From positions 1 through 33,904 of the IMG/VR virus record IMGVR_UViG_3300042557_001434: a DNA stretch of 33,904 nucleotides. One strand, given 5' to 3'. Below are positions 2,946-29,375 of this stretch, piece after piece. The DNA comes from a virus. Position numbers and translations under genes: made by a program. The notes under the pieces are model-generated. The model was not told where the DNA came from and searched no databases. It saw nothing but the letters and a program-made list of their open reading frames with translations. The stretch's first letter is position 1. Every line of letters starts with the position of its first letter.

Positions 2946-4541
2946 CTAAATACCTCTACTTTGTGCTTCTTGTATTATAAGTATATTGCAACATTCACAC
3001 CCTTGTATCTTAGCGTTATTAATGTATGCGTTTGTATTACTTGCCGCATCATAACAAGCTGGTGATGGTAAAACAGGACTAACTGTGTTGAATATCACAC
3101 CAGAAAAAGTTGATGTGTTATTTAGTGTAACGTTAGACCAAGTTGAAAGTGTTGTTGTAATATATGTTGTTCCATTACATAAGTTTGTTGTTGTTATATT
3201 ATTAATAATTGGTGAATTTGGAATCACTGGGGATCCATTTACCAAAATGTTTGCACCAGAATTATTTGTTGCTGAAGTTGGTAATGGTGCGACACTAAAC
3301 TGTGAATTAGTGATCAAATCAAAAACAACATCAACACCATTTGGTAGTGCTGGTGTTATTGAAATACTTAAATTATTTCCAGATCTAATAAGTGCAATGT
3401 TGTAAGTTATTGGTGAAGAACTAGATGTTATTGTAACAATTTGTGTTTGTAAAGAACCTGTGGAATCTTTAGTAACAATTGAGTAATTTCCACTACCTAA
3501 ATTATTGAATATCGGATTAAACTGAAATGTTGTTCCTCCATTTTTTGAGTATTGGTATGGTGGAACACCACCACTTGCTGAAACAATTATAGAACCATTA
3601 CTACCACAAGAAGGATTATTACTTGTTAATTGCATTGATAGTGGTGGTAAATTATCACAACTTCCTTCTACAACTGTTATTATAGTTTTACCAGCACCTA
3701 AAATTTGCCAACCATTTAATGGTGGTGTGTCTGGATTTGGGTTATAAACAACAAAACTTGTATTACCAGAAATTAACCAATCTTCTGTTGTTCCTGTGTT
3801 CCAATACATAAAAAATTCACTATCACTAGATAACCAACTTGGTTTATCATTAAAAATACCATTATATATAAAATCTGAAAATTCTGACTGAAATGTATTA
3901 CCAATTGGTGTTGTATATATTACACACAAATCATCAAATTGTGGTAAAATTGTTGTACTTGTTGTTGTGGTTACTGGAGATGGTGTTTCGGCAGATAAAA
4001 TACAAGTTGATGTAATTAAAAAATCACCATATGAATCTGTAACTGTCGCTTTATATTCCCCAACACCTAAATTATTTATTGTTGTTCCAACACTTCCATT
4101 TTCCCATAATATTTCATATGGTGGTGTTCCTCCTGTAATATACAAAGATGCGGAACCGTCAAATGTGTCACTAAAACTAGGATCAATACTAACACATTCA
4201 ACACCCATAGGAAATATTGTTATTACATCACATTCATTTGTTGGTTCTAGTGGTGTGTTTGGTGATGGAAAAAATGTTGTAGTTGTGGTTGTAATTGGAA
4301 AAAATGTTGTAGTTGTGGTTGTTAGTGCAAGACAAACACCATCCACACATCCACCAAGTAATGTTGTACTTGTAGGTAATCTAGTGGCTCCATTAAAATT
4401 ACTAATATCATTTGTACAAAAATTATAAATATTTCCAAAAGTAATTGGTATAAATTGTGTGATGTTATCACAATCAGTATATGATGCTAAACCAGTTGCT
4501 TCAGCAGTAAATTCATAACAATTACAAGTAGAACTTCCCAT
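2946..4541 (-). CDS. SprB-repeat-containing surface/fibre protein
   Basis: 531 residues. After a Cys-containing N-terminal region (CNCYEF, YTDCDN) come tandem Thr-rich linkers ending in FFP. Two segments then match the pattern of SprB repeats, the module of flavobacterial gliding-motility adhesins: one with GGTPPYEILWENGS then GVGEYKATVTDSYG, the other with GGVPPYQYSKNGG then GSGNYSIVTKDSTG. Another TTTTSTTILP linker separates the first repeat from the middle of the protein. The C-terminus holds CECC. No signal peptide is visible, as expected for a virion protein. It lies just after the glycosyltransferase-like gene and before the 929-residue protein, and a TATTTAT element precedes the start by four bases. 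A host-recognition fibre or decoration protein is the likely role; the exact position in the virion is unknown. Confidence 0.7.
   Translation of the reverse strand: MGSSTCNCYEFTAEATGLASYTDCDNITQFIPITFGNIYNFCTNDISNFNGATRLPTSTTLLGGCVDGVCLALTTTTTTFFPITTTTTTFFPSPNTPLEPTNECDVITIFPMGVECVSIDPSFSDTFDGSASLYITGGTPPYEILWENGSVGTTINNLGVGEYKATVTDSYGDFLITSTCILSAETPSPVTTTTSTTILPQFDDLCVIYTTPIGNTFQSEFSDFIYNGIFNDKPSWLSSDSEFFMYWNTGTTEDWLISGNTSFVVYNPNPDTPPLNGWQILGAGKTIITVVEGSCDNLPPLSMQLTSNNPSCGSNGSIIVSASGGVPPYQYSKNGGTTFQFNPIFNNLGSGNYSIVTKDSTGSLQTQIVTITSSSSPITYNIALIRSGNNLSISITPALPNGVDVVFDLITNSQFSVAPLPTSATNNSGANILVNGSPVIPNSPIINNITTTNLCNGTTYITTTLSTWSNVTLNNTSTFSGVIFNTVSPVLPSPACYDAASNTNAYINNAKIQGCECCNILIIQEAQSRGI
4267..4322 (-). 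repeat. Exact 26-base tandem repeat encoding Thr-rich TTFFP linker
   Basis: A 26-base string occurs at 4267-4292 and again without change at 4297-4322 (period 30). It encodes two copies of a Thr-run followed by FFP in the 531-residue protein. Exact identity suggests recent duplication or gene conversion. Confidence 0.8.
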
Positions 4542-7214: not shown

Positions 7215-7520
7215 CTAATCTTGGAAAGTATAATCTATTCCGTCCATAAAAAAGAAATTAATCCCGTCTTGGAACTGTTTTACGGTTGGGAATAGGTCAC
7301 ATAGTAAAAATTCGCTATGGTCACAATTCACACAATTTGTAAATTTCAAAGTAAGTCCTGGGTATGTATCAAATAGTGGTGGTAATGTTAAAGCGATTGT
7401 TGGTGGAATGAAATCGTTTAGAGTTGCAATTAAAATACAATTATTTCCATAGATGTCACAACCCCACACATTAAATGGAACTGAAAAATTAAATACATTT
7501 GTTATAATAAGTTGTGTCAT
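7215..7520 (-). CDS. Small hypothetical protein in fibre cluster
   Basis: 101 residues, family not recognised. It is beta-rich and hydrophobic in parts (FNFSVPFNVWGCDIYGNNC, IALTLPPLF), with five Cys, two of them in NCVNCDH. The C-terminal part, TVKQFQDGINFFFMDGIDYTF, looks like a compact structural end. Its ATG overlaps the stop of the upstream 1104-residue gene by one base (TAATG), so translation is probably coupled and the product may be made in proportion to that protein. It could be an accessory fibre component or an assembly factor for it; nothing in the sequence decides between these. Confidence 0.55.
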   Translation of the reverse strand: MTQLIITNVFNFSVPFNVWGCDIYGNNCILIATLNDFIPPTIALTLPPLFDTYPGLTLKFTNCVNCDHSEFLLCDLFPTVKQFQDGINFFFMDGIDYTFQD

Positions 7521-10500
7521 TATATTGGTCCTGCGTCATTTATAATCCAGTTATTTGGTCCAGACGTTAATGTATTTCTAGCAACGGACGCAGCGCTTGG
7601 GAATGCACTATAAAATGAGTTTCCGCCATCAAAAGTTACATCTGGTTGTACTGTTTGTGCTGCCCAACCAACTAATAATGCGTTGTAATTTGTTGTTGAT
7701 AGACTTATATTCGCAAACATATTAAACATAGTTGTTACATTTGATATATTCCAACTGGATAGATTTTGTTCAAAAACAACAGCGTTAGCAAAAACACCAT
7801 TCATATTTGTTACATTTATAGTATTCCAAGTTGTTATATTTTGATTAAATACTGAAGCTCCTGCAAACATATTACTTATGTCTGTTACTGAAGACATAAT
7901 CCAATTACCTATAGGTTGGTTAAAATGTATACAAGAACTGAACATACCAGACATATCAAAAACTGTTGATACATCCCAGTTATTAATTAATGAACTACCG
8001 CCATTATTAAAATCAATACAACTCGCAAACATTCCAGATGTATTTTGTACATTAGACATGTCCCAATCACTTAAATTATCATTAAAATTAACATCTTTTC
8101 CAAACGCTTCTTCAAATGTTATAACTGATGATGTGTCCCATAATTCAACATTATTAATTGTTGTTAATGTTTGGCATCCAGCAAAAACTCGTTTTAAATT
8201 AAAAGTTCCGGATAAATCTAAAACATCCACAACCAATGAAAGATCTAAACCTCTACAACCAGCGAAATTATATCCATCATTACCTAATTTAAGTGGTCCC
8301 CAACTTACAACACTTGTGATGTATTTAGTACTTGGACTTGAGTTAAATGACCAACCTTCAATAGTTCCGGATATTGTTACAGTATAGTTACCATTTGCGA
8401 CGTATGTATGTGTTGCTTGAGGACTATTCCAAGTGTTAATAAAATCCGTATTACCATCGCCCCAATTAACAGTGAAAGAATATGTTCCCAATGGTATTAA
8501 AGGTAATGTTATTGGGAACATTGATGAAACAAACCAAGTGGTAACAAAATCATAAATTGGTGCTGGTGAAGCGGAAGGTGTTGGCGTAACAGTAGGTGTA
8601 ACAGTAGGTGTAACAGTAGGTGTTGGTGTAACAGTAGGTGTTGGCGTGTTTGTTGGTGTAGGTGTTGGTGTGTTTGTTGGTGTAGGTGTTGGTGGTAATC
8701 CGCAAAACTCACAAGAAATATCATAATCAATTAAAAGATTAATTGTTATTTTTGCATCGCTTAATAAATTAACATTTTGTTGATTGCAAGTGCTACCAGT
8801 TGTAACACAAGTATTAAAAATTTGTATTGTATTTTTTTGGTAATCAACAATAACATCACCAATTCCTTCGTATGTTTTAATAGTTTCAACAACTGTATTT
8901 ACCCATAACACATCAGAAGGATAATCTGTGATTCCAGATGATGAATAAAAATTAATTTGTTTATATTCTCCATCAACAGAAGTTTCAAGAACAAATTGTG
9001 CTGTGTTTAATTTACAATTTATATCATCAAATGTTAGATCATAAAAACCCTCATTAAACATTTGATAAATCCCTCTTTTACCAATTATGTCTGTCTTTTG
9101 AAATGGTGAACTGCAGATATTAAATACTTGATAATTAGATAATTTATTAGTTCCATCAAGTAATGTTGATTTAGTGTATACACAACCGTTACTATCTACA
9201 ACTTCTAAAGTATATGTTCCGGCCGATAATCCAGTAACTAGTGGTCCTGTTCCAACATTAGGTGTCCAATTATATGTAAATGGTGGTTCACCATAGTAGA
9301 TTAATGTTTGGATTTCTCCATCATTACCGTTAACTGGTTGTGTTGTAAATAAATCAAAAAACACACCATTTGATGGGTTTATTGTAAAGTTTGTTGTTTG
9401 AGAACAACCATTTAGATCTGTTACTGTTGCTGTATATGTTCCGGATGGTAAATTATTATATATTGTTTGTGATGATGGTGGATACCCGTTAATTTCATAT
9501 GTGTAAGGTAATGTTCCTCCAGAACTTGATATTATTTGTACTGATCCATTAGAAAACCCACAAGTTGTTCCTGTTGTTGATGCTGATATTGTGAATAATA
9601 TTGTGTTACTTATTGTAATGGTTGTTGTATATGTACAAACACCTTGTGATATAACTAAAGTATAGGTGTCTGATGCTAAATTTGGAAATGTTTTGTTTGC
9701 TAACGTTGTTGTTTCTGATATTGAGTTACCTAAAGAATCTATTAATGTATATGTAAATGCTCCTGATGGTACACCACTATTTAAAATAATATCAATCTGA
9801 CCATTGTTTCCACAACTTGAGTTTGTTGAATTTATTGAGACAATAGAAAAAGCGTTTGGTGTGATTAGTGATGTTGAATTAATAAAACTACAAAGTCCGG
9901 CGTCTTGTACGTAAACAGAAAAACTTCCAGAACTTAGTCCACTAAATGTGTATGATTGTGAAAATGTTATTATGGTTTCACCGTTACTACCACTATAATA
10001 ATATGGACCGGTTCCATCAACTATTACGACCTCAATAGATCCATCATTTCCAAAACAAGTAGGTGGTGTTGTTATAAAAGAACCAAAAGTAACTGGAGGT
10101 ACATTATCAACAAAAACTGTTTGGATTAATGAACAACCATTATTGTCTGTTACAGTTACAGAATAAAAACCTGATAATAAATTTTCAATATTTTGTGTTG
10201 TTTCACCATTAGACCACAAATATGTGAATGGAGGATTACCGGTTAAACCTGTTATAAATATTTTACCATTTCCAAAAGCCGAAATACAATTAGCGTCATT
10301 TACAACATAAAATCCATAATTTATCGGATTTGATGAATTTATAATACAAGATTCAGATCTTCCTGTGCAACCACCTCCATCATCGGCAATAACATAATAT
10401 GTTTCAGGTAATAAACCATTAAAAACATAGTCATTAGTTACACCAATAGCAGAATATATTAAGTTGTCATTTATATCATACAAATAAAAATCTATTGGTC

Positions 10501-10834
10501 CGTAAACATTTTCAGTTGTCGCCGTAAGGGAACCATTATTTATCCCACAAGTTGTACCAGTAACCTCAATTGAAATGCAGGTTCCTGAAGATATATAAAT
10601 TGGCACAATTAATGTGTCAAAAGCCGAGTCCGTTATTTCAACAAAATAACTACCAGATGGTAGGTTGTTAACATAATATGTTGATGTTGTTGCTGAGGTT
10701 GGTAATAAACCGCTTGTTGATATTTCTGAAACCGCCCATCCTGGACTGTCTCCGGTTATATTAAAAAATACCTCACCAATAGTAAGATTACTACAATCCC
10801 CAGTTACAGAATAATTATTTATTAATATAGCCAT
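7520..10834 (-). CDS. Mosaic adhesin/fibre: SprB repeats, PTP linker, PKD-like and DUF285 repeats
   Basis: 1104 residues. Residues about 80-560 carry around six SprB-like repeats (for example GNPPFTYLWSNGETTQNIENL then SGFYSVTVTDNNGCS), each ending in a G-x-Y-x-V-x-V-D-x-x-G-C type strand. About 568-707 is a Cys-containing module that resembles the C-terminus of the upstream 1005-residue protein. About 713-755 is a Pro/Thr/Val linker. About 775-830 is PKD-like (FTVNWGDGNTDF, THTYVANGNYTVTISG). About 880-1060 are DUF285/BspA-type repeats with units such as MFAGASVFNQNITTWN. SprB and DUF285 modules are typical of Bacteroidota surface adhesins, so this is probably the main host-binding fibre. 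Both ends are joined to neighbours by TAATG overlaps. Confidence 0.8.
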   Translation of the reverse strand: MAILINNYSVTGDCSNLTIGEVFFNITGDSPGWAVSEISTSGLLPTSATTSTYYVNNLPSGSYFVEITDSAFDTLIVPIYISSGTCISIEVTGTTCGINNGSLTATTENVYGPIDFYLYDINDNLIYSAIGVTNDYVFNGLLPETYYVIADDGGGCTGRSESCIINSSNPINYGFYVVNDANCISAFGNGKIFITGLTGNPPFTYLWSNGETTQNIENLLSGFYSVTVTDNNGCSLIQTVFVDNVPPVTFGSFITTPPTCFGNDGSIEVVIVDGTGPYYYSGSNGETIITFSQSYTFSGLSSGSFSVYVQDAGLCSFINSTSLITPNAFSIVSINSTNSSCGNNGQIDIILNSGVPSGAFTYTLIDSLGNSISETTTLANKTFPNLASDTYTLVISQGVCTYTTTITISNTILFTISASTTGTTCGFSNGSVQIISSSGGTLPYTYEINGYPPSSQTIYNNLPSGTYTATVTDLNGCSQTTNFTINPSNGVFFDLFTTQPVNGNDGEIQTLIYYGEPPFTYNWTPNVGTGPLVTGLSAGTYTLEVVDSNGCVYTKSTLLDGTNKLSNYQVFNICSSPFQKTDIIGKRGIYQMFNEGFYDLTFDDINCKLNTAQFVLETSVDGEYKQINFYSSSGITDYPSDVLWVNTVVETIKTYEGIGDVIVDYQKNTIQIFNTCVTTGSTCNQQNVNLLSDAKITINLLIDYDISCEFCGLPPTPTPTNTPTPTPTNTPTPTVTPTPTVTPTVTPTVTPTPSASPAPIYDFVTTWFVSSMFPITLPLIPLGTYSFTVNWGDGNTDFINTWNSPQATHTYVANGNYTVTISGTIEGWSFNSSPSTKYITSVVSWGPLKLGNDGYNFAGCRGLDLSLVVDVLDLSGTFNLKRVFAGCQTLTTINNVELWDTSSVITFEEAFGKDVNFNDNLSDWDMSNVQNTSGMFASCIDFNNGGSSLINNWDVSTVFDMSGMFSSCIHFNQPIGNWIMSSVTDISNMFAGASVFNQNITTWNTINVTNMNGVFANAVVFEQNLSSWNISNVTTMFNMFANISLSTTNYNALLVGWAAQTVQPDVTFDGGNSFYSAFPSAASVARNTLTSGPNNWIINDAGPI
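8575..8695 (-). repeat. Pro/Thr/Val linker with 6-base repeat units
   Basis: Encodes residues about 713-755 of the 1104-residue protein, alternating TPTP, NTPTP and VTPT. The plus strand shows repeated GGTGTAACAGTA and GGTGTTGGTGTA strings. Unit changes alter linker length without breaking the frame. Confidence 0.8.
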
Positions 10835-24028: not shown

Positions 24029-24562
24029 TTACATGTTATTACCTCTCAAAGCTTCACTCCAAATTGCCGAACCACCAACCATATCCCATGTCCAGGCTTT
24101 TTCTGGTTTCATTTCTCTATCAAAATATACTTTACCAAGTTCATCAAGATACAAAAAAACCTCTGGGTTTGAGGAAATTTTACCATTTTCAAACTTTGCT
24201 GTGATGTTTAACAAACCTTTCCAAATTCTTGTTCCTTTCTTTTCGTTTGGATATAAATCTTCTTTATCTCTAGTTACATTAAAATAAAGATTAAGCTCAT
24301 CAACATTTTGACCTTCTAAATTAATCGCGTGATTTCTATCATCATATTTGTTTATGGTTATTGAAGAACCCTCTAGTACACCAATTTGTCCAAAATATAA
24401 TTTTTTTCCAATTAATTTAGTTGATATTTTTTTAGCTAGATTATCAAAAAAAACTTTTCTTTTTTCTGAAACATTTTGTTCCATTATTACTCTTTTAACA
24501 ATTCTTGTTAAATCTGATTCTGTTAACCTTATAATTCTTTTCATCGTTTTTTTTTGATTCAT
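24029..24562 (-). CDS. Tagged protein 1: shared N-terminal peptide plus unknown domain
   Basis: 177 residues from the ATG at 24562; a second ATG at 24544 (M7) matches the start of the two other tagged proteins. From M7 it reads MKRIIRLTESDLTRIVKRVI then MEQ, nearly identical to the starts of the genes at 26985 and 28400. I20-M21-E22 (counted from M7) fits the I/L-x-E consensus of T4-type prohead proteases. The body is a small alpha/beta protein with a lysine-rich front (KKISTKLIGKKLYFGQIG) and TWDMVGGSAIWSEALRGN at the C-terminus; I do not recognise it. It sits between the gp6-like and 1798-residue genes with its own terminator, like an inserted cassette. TATTTAT spacing (10 bases to the first ATG) favours the longer start; the tag alignment favours the shorter. 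Confidence 0.7.
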   Translation of the reverse strand: MNQKKTMKRIIRLTESDLTRIVKRVIMEQNVSEKRKVFFDNLAKKISTKLIGKKLYFGQIGVLEGSSITINKYDDRNHAINLEGQNVDELNLYFNVTRDKEDLYPNEKKGTRIWKGLLNITAKFENGKISSNPEVFLYLDELGKVYFDREMKPEKAWTWDMVGGSAIWSEALRGNNM

Positions 24563-24568
24563 TATTTA

Positions 24569-24579
24569 ATAAATAAATA
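24569..24579 (-). promoter_or_regulatory. Overlapping TATTTAT elements before tagged protein 1
   Basis: Minus-strand TATATTTATTTAT holds two overlapping copies of TATTTAT in the 25-base gap after the gp6-like gene. TATATTTA differs from the Bacteroidota -7 box TAnnTTTG only in the last base. Confidence 0.35.
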
Positions 24580-24587
24580 TATTTTAT

Positions 24588-26426
24588 TTAGGTAAAAGTT
24601 ACCGTTTTTAAATTGATTACCCTAACATTAATATCCTTGTTTGGATATCTAACTTGGTATATTTGTGTTGGTTCTGCAAATATTGTGTCAGCAATTAAAT
24701 CAATTTGTTTTGTATTTGAATTTGAGTATTTTTGTGATGTTTGATTTGATGAGTATTGACCACCAACTCTATTAAAGAATCTCATATCTGAAATACTAAT
24801 AACACCATTTTCATTTTGAATCAATCTTCTTAATTCAGAAACATTTACATTTTGACCTAATTGTCTTGTGTTTGGACTAAAATAGGTATTAACAATATCA
24901 ATTATTTTAGATACGATTGCTCCAGAGTTTTGGGTTGCATCTAATACAACATCAACATCAACAGCAAGATCAATTGGATTAGCACTTTCAATAGAAATAT
25001 AATCATTTATCATTCTATAATTTGAGAGATAATTTGCAACATTGTTTTTAAGTGTTGATGAAATTGTATCAGTTAAAGTTCCGTTTGAATCATAAGATAA
25101 CATCTTAATTTTTATCTTATTATTTTCTTCAGTAATTGTAACTTTTGCTGGAGCTCCAAACTGTGATGGCATATTTCTTATGATTGATTCATAATCATTT
25201 ATTGTAACAGCTCTATTTTGTGCTGAGAAGTTAAATGAAACCATTTGTCTTACGTCTTCGGTTGTTGGTGCATTTGCTCCACCAATTGCGGCTGTAACAT
25301 TATTACATCTTAATGTATTCACAACAGATTTATTAACACTTTCCGAAGGTCCGTTTACAAAGAACGATACGGTACCAATTTGTGTAATAACATTTGACCC
25401 AAGATTTGTTGCTTGTCCTCCACCTATTCTATATTGAATGAATAATGTTGAGTTTGATTTTAAAGCGGCTCCTAATGCTAAATTGTTTGAGTATTTATTT
25501 AAATCAAAAGCATCTCCTGTTCTTGCAAATTCTCTTAATTGTTCTTCTGCCGATACATTTCCACCGCCAAAAGTCATCTTTAAATAACCTTCTGGTGTAT
25601 ATTCTGTTACAAATTTTGTATTTGTAACAATATATTTTCCAACTTTAATACCTGGTTGATCCGATACTTTTGTTGGGTCCTCAATAAAGACTCTATCTTC
25701 GGCCAAAGCCTTAACTTCGTACCATCTATTATCAAGACCCAAAAATTCTTGTGGTTCCGGAATTGTATTATATTGTGTTCCATCTTTTAATAAAACACTT
25801 GTAATACCTAAAACATTTTTTTCTGGTAAAAATAATTCAAAATAAGGTTTTACATCATTTGGTGTAATAACTCTTTTGAAAACTTTTGTTGTTCCATTAA
25901 CAACAACTTCTCTTTTTGTTATTGTGTAGTTTAATATTCTTCCGTTTGTATCAAAGTTTGGAATTTTTAATCTATTTGGTGATCCTTCAGCATTTATTGG
26001 TGATGCAAAATCAATATCATATACCGTTTCAAATGGTTGTCCGGCACCAGATACTTGTGATCCTCTTCTTAAAATTCCACAATATCTTAAATCTTCTTTA
26101 TCACCAAAAGCTGGAACCGTAATTGAAAAATCAACTAAAGCAACTGATGGTCTTTGTCCTGGTATTTTTAAACCATAGGTTCTTGCTATATTGTATATTG
26201 ATGCTTTTTGTTGTGCAAACTGTAATACAGTTTCTTGAATACTCCTATCAATTTGAAATTGTAGGTTATCATTAACTGCGGCATTTAAGTCCATTAACAC
26301 CGAAAAAACTCCAGCGTCATTAAAATTTTGGATAAGGTCCGGATAATAAGTTCTTGTGAAATTTATTAATTCAGTTCTTATTGTTTGAAAGTCCCTAGCT
26401 GTGTATGATATTTTTTTTTCTGCCAT
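24588..26426 (-). CDS. Baseplate wedge protein, gp6/baseplate-J-like
   Basis: 612 residues. The N-terminus (SYTARDFQTIRTELINF, YYPDLIQNFNDAGVFSVLM, then DLNAAVNDNLQFQIDRSIQE) is the characteristic start of T4 gp6-like wedge proteins in T4-like phages: the aromatic-DF motif, a region around 'nd.g..l.dl.a...d...y..d....E' and a helix rich in aromatics. Further on, VRQMVSFNFSAQNRAVTINDYESIIRNMP resembles the baseplate-J family core. In T4, gp6 dimers form the iris-like inner ring of the baseplate that opens during sheath contraction; length is close to T4 gp6 (about 660). It follows the gp25-like gene with a 6-base gap, a pairing common in contractile tails. Confidence 0.88.
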   Translation of the reverse strand: MAEKKISYTARDFQTIRTELINFTRTYYPDLIQNFNDAGVFSVLMDLNAAVNDNLQFQIDRSIQETVLQFAQQKASIYNIARTYGLKIPGQRPSVALVDFSITVPAFGDKEDLRYCGILRRGSQVSGAGQPFETVYDIDFASPINAEGSPNRLKIPNFDTNGRILNYTITKREVVVNGTTKVFKRVITPNDVKPYFELFLPEKNVLGITSVLLKDGTQYNTIPEPQEFLGLDNRWYEVKALAEDRVFIEDPTKVSDQPGIKVGKYIVTNTKFVTEYTPEGYLKMTFGGGNVSAEEQLREFARTGDAFDLNKYSNNLALGAALKSNSTLFIQYRIGGGQATNLGSNVITQIGTVSFFVNGPSESVNKSVVNTLRCNNVTAAIGGANAPTTEDVRQMVSFNFSAQNRAVTINDYESIIRNMPSQFGAPAKVTITEENNKIKIKMLSYDSNGTLTDTISSTLKNNVANYLSNYRMINDYISIESANPIDLAVDVDVVLDATQNSGAIVSKIIDIVNTYFSPNTRQLGQNVNVSELRRLIQNENGVISISDMRFFNRVGGQYSSNQTSQKYSNSNTKQIDLIADTIFAEPTQIYQVRYPNKDINVRVINLKTVTFT

Positions 26427-26432
26427 ATATTA

Positions 26433-26891
26433 TTAAATATTAATAATTACAAAATCACTACTTTCAAAAGCCTGATTTGTTGACCTATAATCAATTTTTA
26501 TTTTTGCTGTATGTTCTTTTTCAGCAATACCTTGTACTGTAAATTCTCTTTGACCTTGACTATTAATAAAAGTTCCTTTATCTTCTTCACCTTCTGAAGC
26601 GTCAGTAATACTAATATTTGTTATTTGTATTCCGGGAATATATCTTTCAACACTATCTCGTATTTCGGCTTCAATATCTGAAAATGTTGGTCCATCCAAT
26701 GGTTCAAAAATATATTCATATAATCTTGTTCCAAAATCTGGTAAGAAATATCTGGTTCCCTTTCTTGTTAATAATAAATGAACAAGATCTGTTCTTATTT
26801 CTTCATCACTAGTGTCTGAAAGATCCAAATATCTACCCGTAAAAGATTCTCTAAAAGGAAAATTTATTCCGTATGTAACCCCATTTGCCAT
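26433..26891 (-). CDS. Baseplate wedge protein, gp25/GPW-like
   Basis: About 152 residues from the ATG at 26891; a TTG six bases upstream (26897) is a less likely start. The sequence GINFPFRES, then EEIRTDLVHLLLTRKGTRYF then LPDFGTRLYEYIFEPLD, is the classic GPW/gp25 pattern: inner-ring strand, helix with RxxL, a 'kGeR.f.PdfG..l....fe' core and an acidic helix (DIEAEIRDSVERYIPGI). In T4, gp25 joins the wedge to the sheath and starts sheath polymerisation. The C-terminal strand EHTAKIKIDYRS is also typical. It is the first gene of the baseplate run, after a terminator, so it needs its own promoter; TATTTAT lies five bases before the ATG (26897-26903). Confidence 0.92.
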   Translation of the reverse strand: MANGVTYGINFPFRESFTGRYLDLSDTSDEEIRTDLVHLLLTRKGTRYFLPDFGTRLYEYIFEPLDGPTFSDIEAEIRDSVERYIPGIQITNISITDASEGEEDKGTFINSQGQREFTVQGIAEKEHTAKIKIDYRSTNQAFESSDFVIINI

Positions 26892-26930
26892 ATCCAATAA
26901 ATATAAGGACTGGTAATTTTATATAAATAA

Positions 26931-26958
26931 AAAACCCTCCTTTGTTAAAGAGGGTTTT
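26931..26958 (-). terminator. Intrinsic terminator after tagged protein 2
   Basis: AAAACCCTC (26931-26939) pairs with GAGGGTTTT (26950-26958); an inner TTT/AAA extends the stem past a bulged C at 26940, leaving loop GTT. On the minus strand a T-rich tract (TTTTTTATTTATAT) follows. It lies 27 bases past the stop of the tagged gene. Confidence 0.8.
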
Positions 26959-26984
26959 AATTAAAAAAATTTAATTATTTTTTT

Positions 26985-27590
26985 TTATAAATTTTTAAGA
27001 AAACTAATAATTTTTTTCATACTATCTTTACACCAAACCTTAACCACTGGTTGGTATCGACCACCAAAAGCTGCGTGCATTGGTGAAGAGGCTGTCCAAT
27101 ATGTTTCGTAACATCCGGGTTGTAAATTTTTTGTTAAAGAAGTTGGAAAAATAGTTTCGAGATCATGTTCTCCATCTTTAAGTTTAGGAATTAAAGATCT
27201 AAGTTTTTCATCTTTTTTCAAATCATATATATCAATTTGGACTTCATCAATATCAGCATTCATTCTTCCAGAACCTTCTTTTTTATAGTCAGATGACCAT
27301 ACAACTGCCATGCCCATTGATGAATTAGTGTATATCTCTTTTGAACCTTCTTTTCTTAAAGAAAATCCTTCAGATTTTAACATTTCACCCATAGATTCCC
27401 ACCATTTTTTTTCTTTTGATTTTTTAATCTCAAGATCTGGTTTAAGTGATGGATTAACACCTAATGGTGTTTCTGTTTTTTTTGTAGATGGTTCCATACC
27501 TGGTCTATATGGAGGATCATTTTGTTCTTTAAGAACTCGTTTAACAATACGAGCAAGATCTGATTCTGTTAGCCTTATTATTCTTTTCAT
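26985..27590 (-). CDS. Tagged protein 2: shared N-terminal peptide plus unknown domain
   Basis: 201 residues beginning MKRIIRLTESDLARIVKRVL then KEQ; L20-K21-E22 matches the I/L-x-E pattern at the same column as the other tagged proteins. A Pro/Lys-rich linker follows (about 25-62), then a globular part from about 63 with WWESMGEMLKSEGFSLRK and GMAVVWSSDYKKEGSG, and a C-terminal stretch with Cys residues (PGCYETYWTASSPMHAAF, VKVWCKDSMKKIISFLK). I do not recognise the fold. Codons in the tag differ from those of the other two genes, so the peptide is kept by selection at protein level and is not a recent DNA copy. It is separated from the gp25-like gene by a terminator and lies divergent to the plus-strand gene. 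Confidence 0.7.
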   Translation of the reverse strand: MKRIIRLTESDLARIVKRVLKEQNDPPYRPGMEPSTKKTETPLGVNPSLKPDLEIKKSKEKKWWESMGEMLKSEGFSLRKEGSKEIYTNSSMGMAVVWSSDYKKEGSGRMNADIDEVQIDIYDLKKDEKLRSLIPKLKDGEHDLETIFPTSLTKNLQPGCYETYWTASSPMHAAFGGRYQPVVKVWCKDSMKKIISFLKNL

Positions 27591-27602
27591 ATTTTTTTAT
27601 TT

Positions 27603-27609
27603 ATAAATA
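27603..27609 (-). promoter_or_regulatory. TATTTAT element before tagged protein 2
   Basis: Minus-strand CATATATTTATAAATAA, 12 bases before the ATG. It lies in the divergent region next to the plus-strand TAnnTTTG promoter but on the opposite strand, so the two genes would use different signals. Confidence 0.35.
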
Positions 27610-27636
27610 TATGTTCAAAAAAAAAAACCAAAAAAG

Positions 27637-27669
27637 TTGTTACATAAATTGTATATTTACATATATTTG
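27637..27669 (+). promoter_or_regulatory. Bacteroidota-type promoter (TTG / TAnnTTTG) for the plus-strand gene
   Basis: TATATTTG at 27662-27669 is an exact match to the Bacteroidota -7 consensus TAnnTTTG. TTG at 27637-27639 can serve as the -33 element with a 22-base spacer, slightly long. Transcription would begin roughly 5-8 bases downstream, leaving a short A/T-rich leader without a Shine-Dalgarno sequence before the ATG at 27697. Confidence 0.6.
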
Positions 27670-27696
27670 TACGTAATCAATTTAAAAATATATCTT

Positions 27697-28350
27697 ATGA
27701 AAAAACTTAATGTAATTTTATTATTTTCTTTAATTTCTTTAATTATTTTTTGTTCAAATGTTAGTTCGTCAATTTTTAGAATAGAACCAAATTGTAAAGT
27801 TGAGGATAAATCTCAACTTAAAGATGGTGACATAATTTTTCATACATCTCAATCAAGTCAGAGTAAAATGTTACAATTAGTAACTTCTTCTGAATTGACA
27901 CACGTTGGTGTTATTTTTATAAAAAATGGTAAACCTTATGTTTTTGAGGCTGTACAACCAGTAAAAATAACTTCTTTTGATAGTTTTGTAAGTAGAGGTT
28001 TGAATTCAAATTATAAAATATTAAGACCAAAAACTCCACTTACTAAAGATCAAATAAAAAAAGGTATGGCTTATTCAAAATTACAAATGGGTAAAAATTA
28101 TGACCTTAAATTTCAATGGGGTGATAAAAAAATGTATTGTTCTGAATTAGTATGGAAAATTTACAAACAAATGGGTGTTGAATTATGTGAACCTAAGACA
28201 TTTGCTAATTTTAATTTGGATGATCCAATTGTTAGATTAGCTATTAAGAAAAGATATGGTAATCAAAAATTTGACTTAAATGAATTAGTTGTTGCCCCTT
28301 CTGACATTTATGAAAGTGATTTATTAACAACAATATATAATACTTATTAA
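27697..28350 (+). CDS. YiiX/YebB-like permuted papain-fold (NlpC/P60-type) exported protein
   Basis: 217 residues from the ATG at 27697. A frame from TTG 27637 would add 20 residues but overlaps the promoter, so I reject it. Residues 1-20 are a signal sequence (MKKLNVILLFSLISLIIFCS); C19 could be lipidated, though the -1 Phe is a poor lipobox. The mature part has L-K-D-G-D-I-I-F (41-48), T-H-V-G-V (68-72, H69), V-F-E (82-84, E84) and Y-C-S-E-L-V (147-152, C148). His before Cys is the order of circularly permuted NlpC/P60 enzymes (YaeF/YiiX, LRAT-like), which act on amide or ester bonds in peptides or lipids. It is the only plus-strand gene in the window, with its own promoter and terminator. 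Roles in lysis, envelope modification or superinfection exclusion are possible. Confidence 0.75.
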   Translation: MKKLNVILLFSLISLIIFCSNVSSSIFRIEPNCKVEDKSQLKDGDIIFHTSQSSQSKMLQLVTSSELTHVGVIFIKNGKPYVFEAVQPVKITSFDSFVSRGLNSNYKILRPKTPLTKDQIKKGMAYSKLQMGKNYDLKFQWGDKKMYCSELVWKIYKQMGVELCEPKTFANFNLDDPIVRLAIKKRYGNQKFDLNELVVAPSDIYESDLLTTIYNTY

Positions 28351-28353
28351 TAA

Positions 28354-28380
28354 TTTAAAACCCCAATTTGGGGTTTTAAA
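28354..28380. terminator. Bidirectional terminator between convergent genes
   Basis: TTTAAAACCCC (28354-28364) pairs with GGGGTTTTAAA (28370-28380): 11 bp, loop AATTT. It lies 4 bases after the plus-strand stop and 20 bases past the minus-strand stop at 28400, with A/T-rich flanks on both sides, so it can serve both genes. Confidence 0.85.
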
Positions 28381-28399
28381 TTTAATTCTTTTTTATTAA

Positions 28400-29338
28400 T
28401 CAACGAGCATACTTTAGATATTTAGAAAAATCAGTCGAATTTTGGTTTAATTCCTCTTCTTTCATACGTCTAACCATAGAAATTGGTGTAGGAAAACAGT
28501 AATTAGTAATCTCTATACCAGATTTTTGAACAACCTCTAAGACAAATGTTCCACAATTACTATCATCATCACTTATTTCAAAATCAAATAAATCGTAGGG
28601 TTTTTTTGAGACACTTTCAGCGTGTGCTATCCCATTATTTATATTTGGAGCACTTAAAACCGCATATTCAATTTTATATTTAGGTCCTTCTCCTTTTGTA
28701 TTTCTGTGTATTATCTTGATTAAATTTTCTAAATTAGTAATCTTTCCGTCTGATATCTTTGCAACTTTACCTAAATTTTTTGAGACACAGACTCCTAAAC
28801 CTTTTTTACTGGCTGTGGCACTATATCTACCAAATTCAAAAATCTTAACATTACCTTCTGGTGTTACTGTTGCAACACCTGCGTGACCAAACGGACCAAC
28901 GGTTCCTTTCTTTTTTGCGAACCCACTTTTTTCTGCAACCCAAGATATAAGTTCTTGCCACATTCCACCTCCTGATTCTATAGTTGGTTCGTATTCGGGA
29001 AATGCAAATGGTATAACAAATCCGTTTTGAGTTGTATTAGTTACTTTTTCATCTTGAGTATTATTTGATAAATATTGATTACCATATTTACTCCAAGCCG
29101 CCTCTGTACTTGCACCAAAAATACCATAACCTTCACCCTTGTTTAATTTAACATATTTACCACTTGGTGATTTAACCCAAGGCCCAATTGTATCCATCCA
29201 ATCTTGGAATTTTTTTATTTCAGTTGTTGATGATGGTATTTTTTGTTCTGAAATTACTTTAATTAATTCTTCTTCACGAATAACTCTCTTAATAATTCTT
29301 GTTAAGTCTGACTCTGTTAATCTTATAATTCTTTTCAT
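28400..29338 (-). CDS. Tagged protein 3: putative peptidoglycan hydrolase with permuted papain-like domain
   Basis: 312 residues. Residues 1-22 are the shared peptide (MKRIIRLTESDLTRIIKRVI then RE), with I20-R-E22 and I29-S-E31 as I/L-x-E sites. About 40-92 resembles a peptidoglycan-binding helical domain (IKKFQDWMDTIGPWV, LNKGEGYGIFGASTEAAWSK). About 146-280 carries G-H-A-G-V (H152), I-F-E-F (E168) and N-C-G-T-F (C262). The His-Glu-Cys order and the spacing from the HxGV motif to the Glu are like those of the YiiX-like gene that converges on it. A permuted papain-fold amidase or endopeptidase acting on cell wall is the best reading. It could be an endolysin or a virion-carried lysin; the tag favours the latter. 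It ends in TGA, and TATTTAT lies 15 bases upstream of the ATG. Confidence 0.72.
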   Translation of the reverse strand: MKRIIRLTESDLTRIIKRVIREEELIKVISEQKIPSSTTEIKKFQDWMDTIGPWVKSPSGKYVKLNKGEGYGIFGASTEAAWSKYGNQYLSNNTQDEKVTNTTQNGFVIPFAFPEYEPTIESGGGMWQELISWVAEKSGFAKKKGTVGPFGHAGVATVTPEGNVKIFEFGRYSATASKKGLGVCVSKNLGKVAKISDGKITNLENLIKIIHRNTKGEGPKYKIEYAVLSAPNINNGIAHAESVSKKPYDLFDFEISDDDSNCGTFVLEVVQKSGIEITNYCFPTPISMVRRMKEEELNQNSTDFSKYLKYAR

Positions 29339-29353
29339 AAACTAATTTTTATT

Positions 29354-29360
29354 ATAAATA
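29354..29360 (-). promoter_or_regulatory. TATTTAT element before tagged protein 3
   Basis: Minus-strand GGGATATTTATAAT, 15 bases before the ATG, directly downstream of the terminator of the DUF5522 gene and its G-run (complement of C7 at 29362-29368). Confidence 0.35.
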
Positions 29361-29375
29361 TCCCCCCCAAAAAAA

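Follow-up and report, generated by a model that had tools for sequence, protein, structure and literature searches.

A stretch of 33,904 bases from an IMG/VR virus record (the window, meaning the whole of the DNA analysed here) carries baseplate, tail-fibre-like, ribonucleotide reductase and helicase genes, together with three genes, at 24029, 26985 and 28400, whose products share a 22-residue N-terminal peptide with the consensus MKRIIRLTESDL[TA]RI[VI]KRV[IL]xE. This peptide, hereafter the tag, is very probably a removable address label by which dozens of different proteins are loaded into the heads of large Bacteroidota phages. We hold with considerable confidence that the shared N-terminus acts as a capsid targeting sequence (CTS), and that a prohead protease of family S77 cuts after its terminal (I/L)xE and frees the cargo in the head. 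As the prohead assembles, the short, basic, amphipathic peptide would bring its protein inside, probably by docking on the scaffold core or becoming part of it, and the protease, of the T4 gp21 type, would then cleave at the end of the tag, leaving the mature cargo free inside the head. The same label would be borne by many unrelated, mostly orphan proteins, and other labels with the same end site would be interchangeable with it; by analogy with T4, the variable front of the tag would bind the prohead core, and its last three residues would form the cut site.

The three tagged genes and the distribution of the tag

All three genes lie on the minus strand, and a tag search of the window returned exactly three matches (E-values 1e-10 to 4e-9). 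The tag of gene 24029 (MKRIIRLTESDLTRIVKRVIME, 24479–24544) is predicted to be cut after E22 and before Q23 (codon 24476–24478), with LTE9 as a possible second site, releasing a cargo encoded by 24029–24478 that belongs to a family without assigned function and has tagged homologues at loci L012/L527, L528 and L529. The longest open reading frame (ORF) of this gene begins further upstream, at 24562 (MNQKKTMKRII...); the tag methionine at 24544 is the likely start, because homologue L527 has an in-frame stop just upstream. In gene 26985 the tag (MKRIIRLTESDLARIVKRVLKE, 27525–27590) has its predicted cut likewise after E22, and the predicted cargo (26985–27524) is an orphan for which no relative was found in viral contigs. 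The third tag, that of gene 28400 (MKRIIRLTESDLTRIIKRVIRE, 29273–29338), is also predicted to be cut after E22, and another site, ISE↓Q, lies nine residues further along (arrows mark predicted cuts); its predicted mature cargo (28400–29272) matches the TseH-like domain PF25218 over residues 108–273 (E-value 4e-14; 53.2 bits against a curated cut-off of 27) and is a predicted TseH-like effector. AlphaFold models of two of the tagged proteins had predicted local distance difference test (pLDDT) scores of 32 and 37, too low for use.

A preliminary description of this DNA had reported three unrelated proteins with a common N-terminal peptide encoded by differing codons, and both points were borne out: the sequence after each tag is unrelated, and the codons differ as claimed at Ile4, Arg6, Leu7, Glu9, Asp11, Leu12 and Arg14, and also at positions 17, 18 and 19. 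Each tag carries I20 or L20, any residue, and E22 (IME, LKE and IRE), as that description had stated. DNA identity between the tags is 73–85% and falls to 30–38% directly past them, and each pair of tags differs by 6–9 synonymous against 2–4 non-synonymous codon changes over 22 codons. Since the differences within the tag are mostly synonymous and the DNA directly after it is unrelated, selection appears to act on the peptide, and recent duplication of the DNA does not account for the likeness.

Scanning viral contigs with the degenerate pattern M-x-x-[hydrophobic]2-RLTESDL yielded at least 120 loci (all scan counts are lower bounds), which encode at least 153 distinct tagged proteins in at least about 123 families having nothing in common past residue 25; the preliminary description was right in mentioning a wider occurrence of RLTESDL starts. 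The tag holds about 3–4 bits of information per position up to residue 22, except at the variable positions 13 and 21, and at most about 0.6 bit from residue 24 onwards; its commonest form is RLTESDLxRIVKRVI. A profile of the tag matched all 50 tagged records tested, 1–16 times each, and none of 50 random viral contigs. Among approximately 85,000 bacterial and archaeal genomes, the RLTESDL pattern had 15 matches, of which three were real tags, all on contigs of metagenome-assembled genomes (MAGs), and in one of these MAGs a different contig encodes an S77 protease. A cellular origin of the tag is therefore ruled out, and the earlier expectation that it would not be widespread in cellular proteins was correct. 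A tblastn search of the bare 23-residue tag and two variants against INPHARED found nothing, and the literature searched, a body outside which most subscription journals and preprints fall, held no text containing RLTESDL or pairing a capsid targeting sequence with Bacteroidota.

The junction motif, the S77 protease and tag replacement

The tag-bearing records are T4-like Bacteroidota phages. A baseplate protein of the window is 91% identical to one in the 296,330-bp record G001, which has a T4-like head cluster of terminase, portal, protease, scaffold and capsid protein genes, and the G001 protease matches the solved T4 gp21 structure 5JBL (E-value 4.5e-13). The S77 family (PF03420, the T4 gp21 family) was detected in 29 of the 50 tagged records (of the 12 largest, 11 have it) and in 8 of the 50 random viral contigs. 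According to a capsid-protein profile, 28 tagged records hold a full-length capsid gene, and all 28 also encode S77, in agreement with the link to a gp21-like protease that the preliminary description had suggested testing. Of the 22 tagged records without a full capsid gene, 21 have no S77 and look like fragments, because the capsid gene is lacking too; the other one, G020, ends shortly past its protease.

If the tag is cut by the S77 protease, its end should resemble the other sites of that enzyme, and alignments of the head proteins of 20 phages reveal such sites. All 19 capsid proteins aligned show LINE↓A, LINE↓S, LIYE↓A or LLKE↓A around residue 60, all 20 proteases show (I/L)xE↓(S/N/A) near residue 34, and most scaffolds contain LxE↓Q, which moves along with preceding insertions (KKTLFE↓Q, KKSLYE↓Q, KKPLNE↓Q). 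Among the matches listed, (I/L/V)xE forms the end of 148 of the 151 tags, 138 in a short class and 10 in a long one, and three tags are without the motif. In the long class (LTESDLHxIVKESVxKILKE) the site lies four residues further on, with leucine at P3 and glutamate at P1 in 10 of 10, and tag lengths range overall from 22 to 26 residues. In the loci read, four records with a divergent (clade-B) capsid have only long tags and 24 with clade-A heads only short ones; the tags of the RLTESDL type (type I) found in G012 (clade B) are all long, and those found in G001 all short. The scaffold is the probable binding partner of the tag, a view helped by the resemblance of its sequence EISELVKESLxE↓Q to DLHRIVKESVNKILxE of the long tags.

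The most telling test of the junction motif is tag swapping, that is, the replacement of the N-terminus on homologues of a tagged cargo. A generic test over the N-termini of all genes gave no usable signal, a few large families dominating it. When the test was restricted to tagged cargo, 94 of 107 cases had the motif; stricter criteria were then applied, since the ITE close to the beginning of type II tags (described below) fits the motif on its own and some of the sequences counted were loose tags of type I. The strict version considered only homologues without a recognisable type I or type II N-terminus, comprising 41 distinct cases in 13 families, and (I/L)xE lay within a few residues of the junction in 39 of the 41 replaced N-termini, against about 20% at random internal places; in both exceptions the motif is slightly further from the junction. 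One DHH-like protein, for example, begins MKIIITESQYKMLINE↓SGIRDIK, MKNLIRKFLKEHTLILE↓SGIRGIK or MRKLIKE↓SGIRDIK, and members of a second cargo family begin MKKVIRLTESDLTRLVKRVLSE↓, MNLNSIIKKVLKE↓ or MGNIERIIRKVLNE↓; the interchangeable tags have the core [IL][IV][KR][KR][VI][IL]xE↓ in common. The preliminary description had interpreted the peptide as a tag for cargo, with cleavage at a site of the gp21 type, and everything that this interpretation predicts at sequence level held, namely a conserved (I/L)xE junction, the link to S77, matching sites in head proteins and a junction that survives replacement of the N-terminus. Its interpretation needs two refinements: LTE9 is a second possible site, so that one or two cuts are possible because LTE9 also fits (I/L)xE, and sequences other than RLTESDL belong to the targeting code as well.

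Type II and type III starts read MKIIITExQY... and MKxLITEEEKxRILG...FLxE↓Q, and L/I-T-E is the sole element that they have in common with type I. The second type, MKIIITExQY...(I/L)xE, was seen in at least 172 unique proteins of at least 65 families (G001 loci L234–L247; viral loci L387–L458), one family (ENISLKEKLLGLIKKVGFES) being present in numerous paralogues, of which some lie in tandem. The DHH family of phages of 634 and 642 kb starts with KYxQFINE↓E, which we take to be close to the CTS form of T4. In three records of 634–735 kb (L535, L537 and L538; LR745206, LR756502 and LR756501), recurrent ORF starts read MK[YH][IL]KxYKIFE↓S or M..KY.QFINE↓E, and these resemble one more type of tag with the same terminal (I/L)xE site. 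Two adjoining genes at L531 (979–1785 and 1791–3032) have the common start MSKQFINEVSRMKxLFxYKxGxVISEQ, perhaps another tag type, and one of them includes a stretch similar to residues 41–107 of the cargo of gene 28400.

Predicted cargo proteins, the upstream element and neighbouring genes

Tags are numerous within a single genome. Of the 345–379 ORFs of G001, about 11% are tagged (11 with type I, about 20 with type II/III and 8–9 with minimal tags), whereas 1,207 ORFs of random viral contigs contained no type I, no type II/III and four minimal tags; the tagged genes are scattered across G001. When 120 cargo representatives were compared with Pfam, few matched, and the matches fell into eight families, including TseH-like (gene 28400 of the window), peptidoglycan-binding, NUDIX and annexin. 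The enzyme-like cargos are TseH-like, NUDIX, abhydrolase and DHH proteins, and cargo families turn over strongly between related phages. ADP-ribosyltransferase cargos, which would parallel T4 Alt, are not claimed, their Pfam matches being below threshold (best E-value 0.006). Tagged cargos at L260:6395–6955, L395:3588–4127 and L507:16121–17176 have the ADP-ribosyltransferase-like motifs YHFT, LYHGS and LYHYT.

A promoter-like element, ATATTTA, is present on the minus strand upstream of genes 24029 (24574–24580), 26985 (27604–27610) and 28400 (29355–29361). It occurs within 50 nt upstream of 23 of 30 tagged genes compared with 59 of 309 others (p 2e-10), and, when the count is confined to genes preceded by a gap of 45 nt or more, of 14 of 16 tagged and 30 of 144 other genes. 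Portal, protease, scaffold and baseplate genes have the element in front of them as well, and its sharing suggests that tagged genes are expressed with the virion genes.

Between two of the tagged genes lies a divergent, untagged gene (27637–28350, plus strand) encoding a YaeF/YiiX-type papain-like amidase (PF05708, E-value 2e-33) with a signal-peptide-like start. Two tail-region proteins on the minus strand (7520–10834 and 2946–4541) contain SprB repeats, the larger one matching DUF285 as well, and a 1,798-aa protein of the window had no match among phage records.

Alternative explanations and comparison with known phage systems

Several observations weigh against a cleaved capsid targeting sequence. 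(I/L)xE is a short motif, and the swap cases, coming from 13 families, are not fully independent; some type II starts have no clear second site; an amphipathic helix could also account for the conservation of I20 and E22 on either side of a residue 21 that varies; and the match between tag class and head clade could stem from common descent alone. In addition, no head gene was recognised in the 34-kb window, and the protease of this phage is for that reason inferred from its relatives. An uncut peptide for assembly or docking on the tail or baseplate, with (I/L)xE merely ending an amphipathic helix, would suit the hydrophobic spacing of the tag and the position of the window tags among baseplate genes, but it is improbable given that the junction motif shifts with tag length, persists where the remainder of the N-terminus has been exchanged and matches sites in three head proteins, and that tagged genes are scattered over G001. 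Still more far-fetched is a mobile 5' module, consisting of a promoter and a start region, that has been spread by recombination for the sake of expression with the peptide being incidental; the common upstream ATATTTA and the joining of the tag to many bodies would fit, while the tag differences are mostly synonymous, so that the peptide and not the DNA is conserved, and ATATTTA does not require the tag peptide, since it serves untagged virion genes.

Two other possibilities concern what happens inside the head. Tagged proteins may be loaded and processed but then remain in the head as part of its structure or core instead of being injected as effectors, which we regard as unlikely though worth serious consideration: most cargos are without a recognisable enzyme domain, and giant-phage heads contain many inner proteins (PMC5694885), but the high cargo turnover and the enzyme-like cargos fit accessory effectors better than a fixed structure. 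That the conserved cut falls at LTE9 (ITE in type II) instead of, or besides, E22 is unlikely. Although L/I-T-E itself fits (I/L)xE↓S in all three types, and several cuts per propeptide are known in T4 and giant phages (PMC5694885), conservation reaches residue 22, and minimal tags such as MNLNSIIKKVLKE↓, which have no LTE, keep the last site at the cargo junction. For the capsid targeting sequence as proposed, delivery of the cargo into the host at infection is the weakest step; injection would follow from the T4 precedent and the rapid turnover of cargo.

According to previous studies, T4 gp21 cleaves its substrates behind L/I-X-E, and the first ten residues of IPIII are enough for packaging; residues 4 and 7 are the main determinants of targeting, residues 8 and 10 those of processing (PMC9026906). 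Like the CTS of IPI, IPII, IPIII and Alt (PMC9026906), the tags are short N-terminal peptides on unrelated head cargo that end in (I/L)xE, and they occur with a gp21-related S77 protease, a T4-like head gene set and cargo that is freely replaced between relatives. Unlike the T4 system, the tags described here have another sequence of about 22 residues rather than 10, come in several interchangeable types in uncultured Bacteroidota jumbo phages and, where T4 has four cargos, mark dozens of predicted ones in each genome, with cutting and packaging predicted from sequence. In its sequence logic this is a T4-type capsid-targeting system, in which the tag sequences are new, the interchangeable types are several and the predicted cargo is roughly ten times that of T4. 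In phiKZ and SPN3US, too, a diverged gp21-like protease processes many head proteins behind xxE sites, and two paralogues of SPN3US are identical over 15 residues at the N-terminus (PMC5694885); the tags here, in contrast, sit on unrelated proteins, and at 22–26 residues they are far from the propeptides of those phages, mostly longer than 100 residues (PMC5694885).

Freshwater Bacteroidetes phages encoding bS21, of up to 331 kb, have terminase, portal, prohead protease and capsid genes together, similar to the tagged phages, according to passages of the study that described them, and the two are probably the same or a close group; the passages that matched our search terms make no mention of N-terminal tags or cargo loading (PMC9723584). 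The cultured Flavobacterium phage immuto (NC_055915) resembles the tagged phages in its T4-like head, its prohead protease and a capsid protein 41% identical to that of G001, with a likely site IVSE↓A. No RLTESDL tag was found in the immuto stretches read; instead, three of its proteins (L533:1803–2318, L532:7632–8633 and L532:8633–8932) begin with NF[DN]L[KR]xFL[VT]EN[KR]LT, a type that differs from RLTESDL. One of these three is annotated as cob(I)alamin adenosyltransferase.

On balance, we favour a wider picture in which large T4-like Bacteroidota phages, perhaps including the largest known, would use interchangeable labels, each defined mainly by a basic amphipathic helix followed by (I/L)xE, to fill every head with dozens of fast-changing, mostly unknown proteins, encoded by approximately one in ten of their genes and delivered along with the DNA, and any gene could be recruited by way of a short 5' end. 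If this is true, a simple N-terminal motif would mark what is carried in the heads of uncultured freshwater phages that form a very abundant group, and hundreds of orphan genes would gain a functional label, many of them as likely early anti-host or anti-defence effectors. It would also predict new short tags for loading chosen proteins into heads, a method so far based on T4, and the question of what jumbo phages inject would become testable from sequence.

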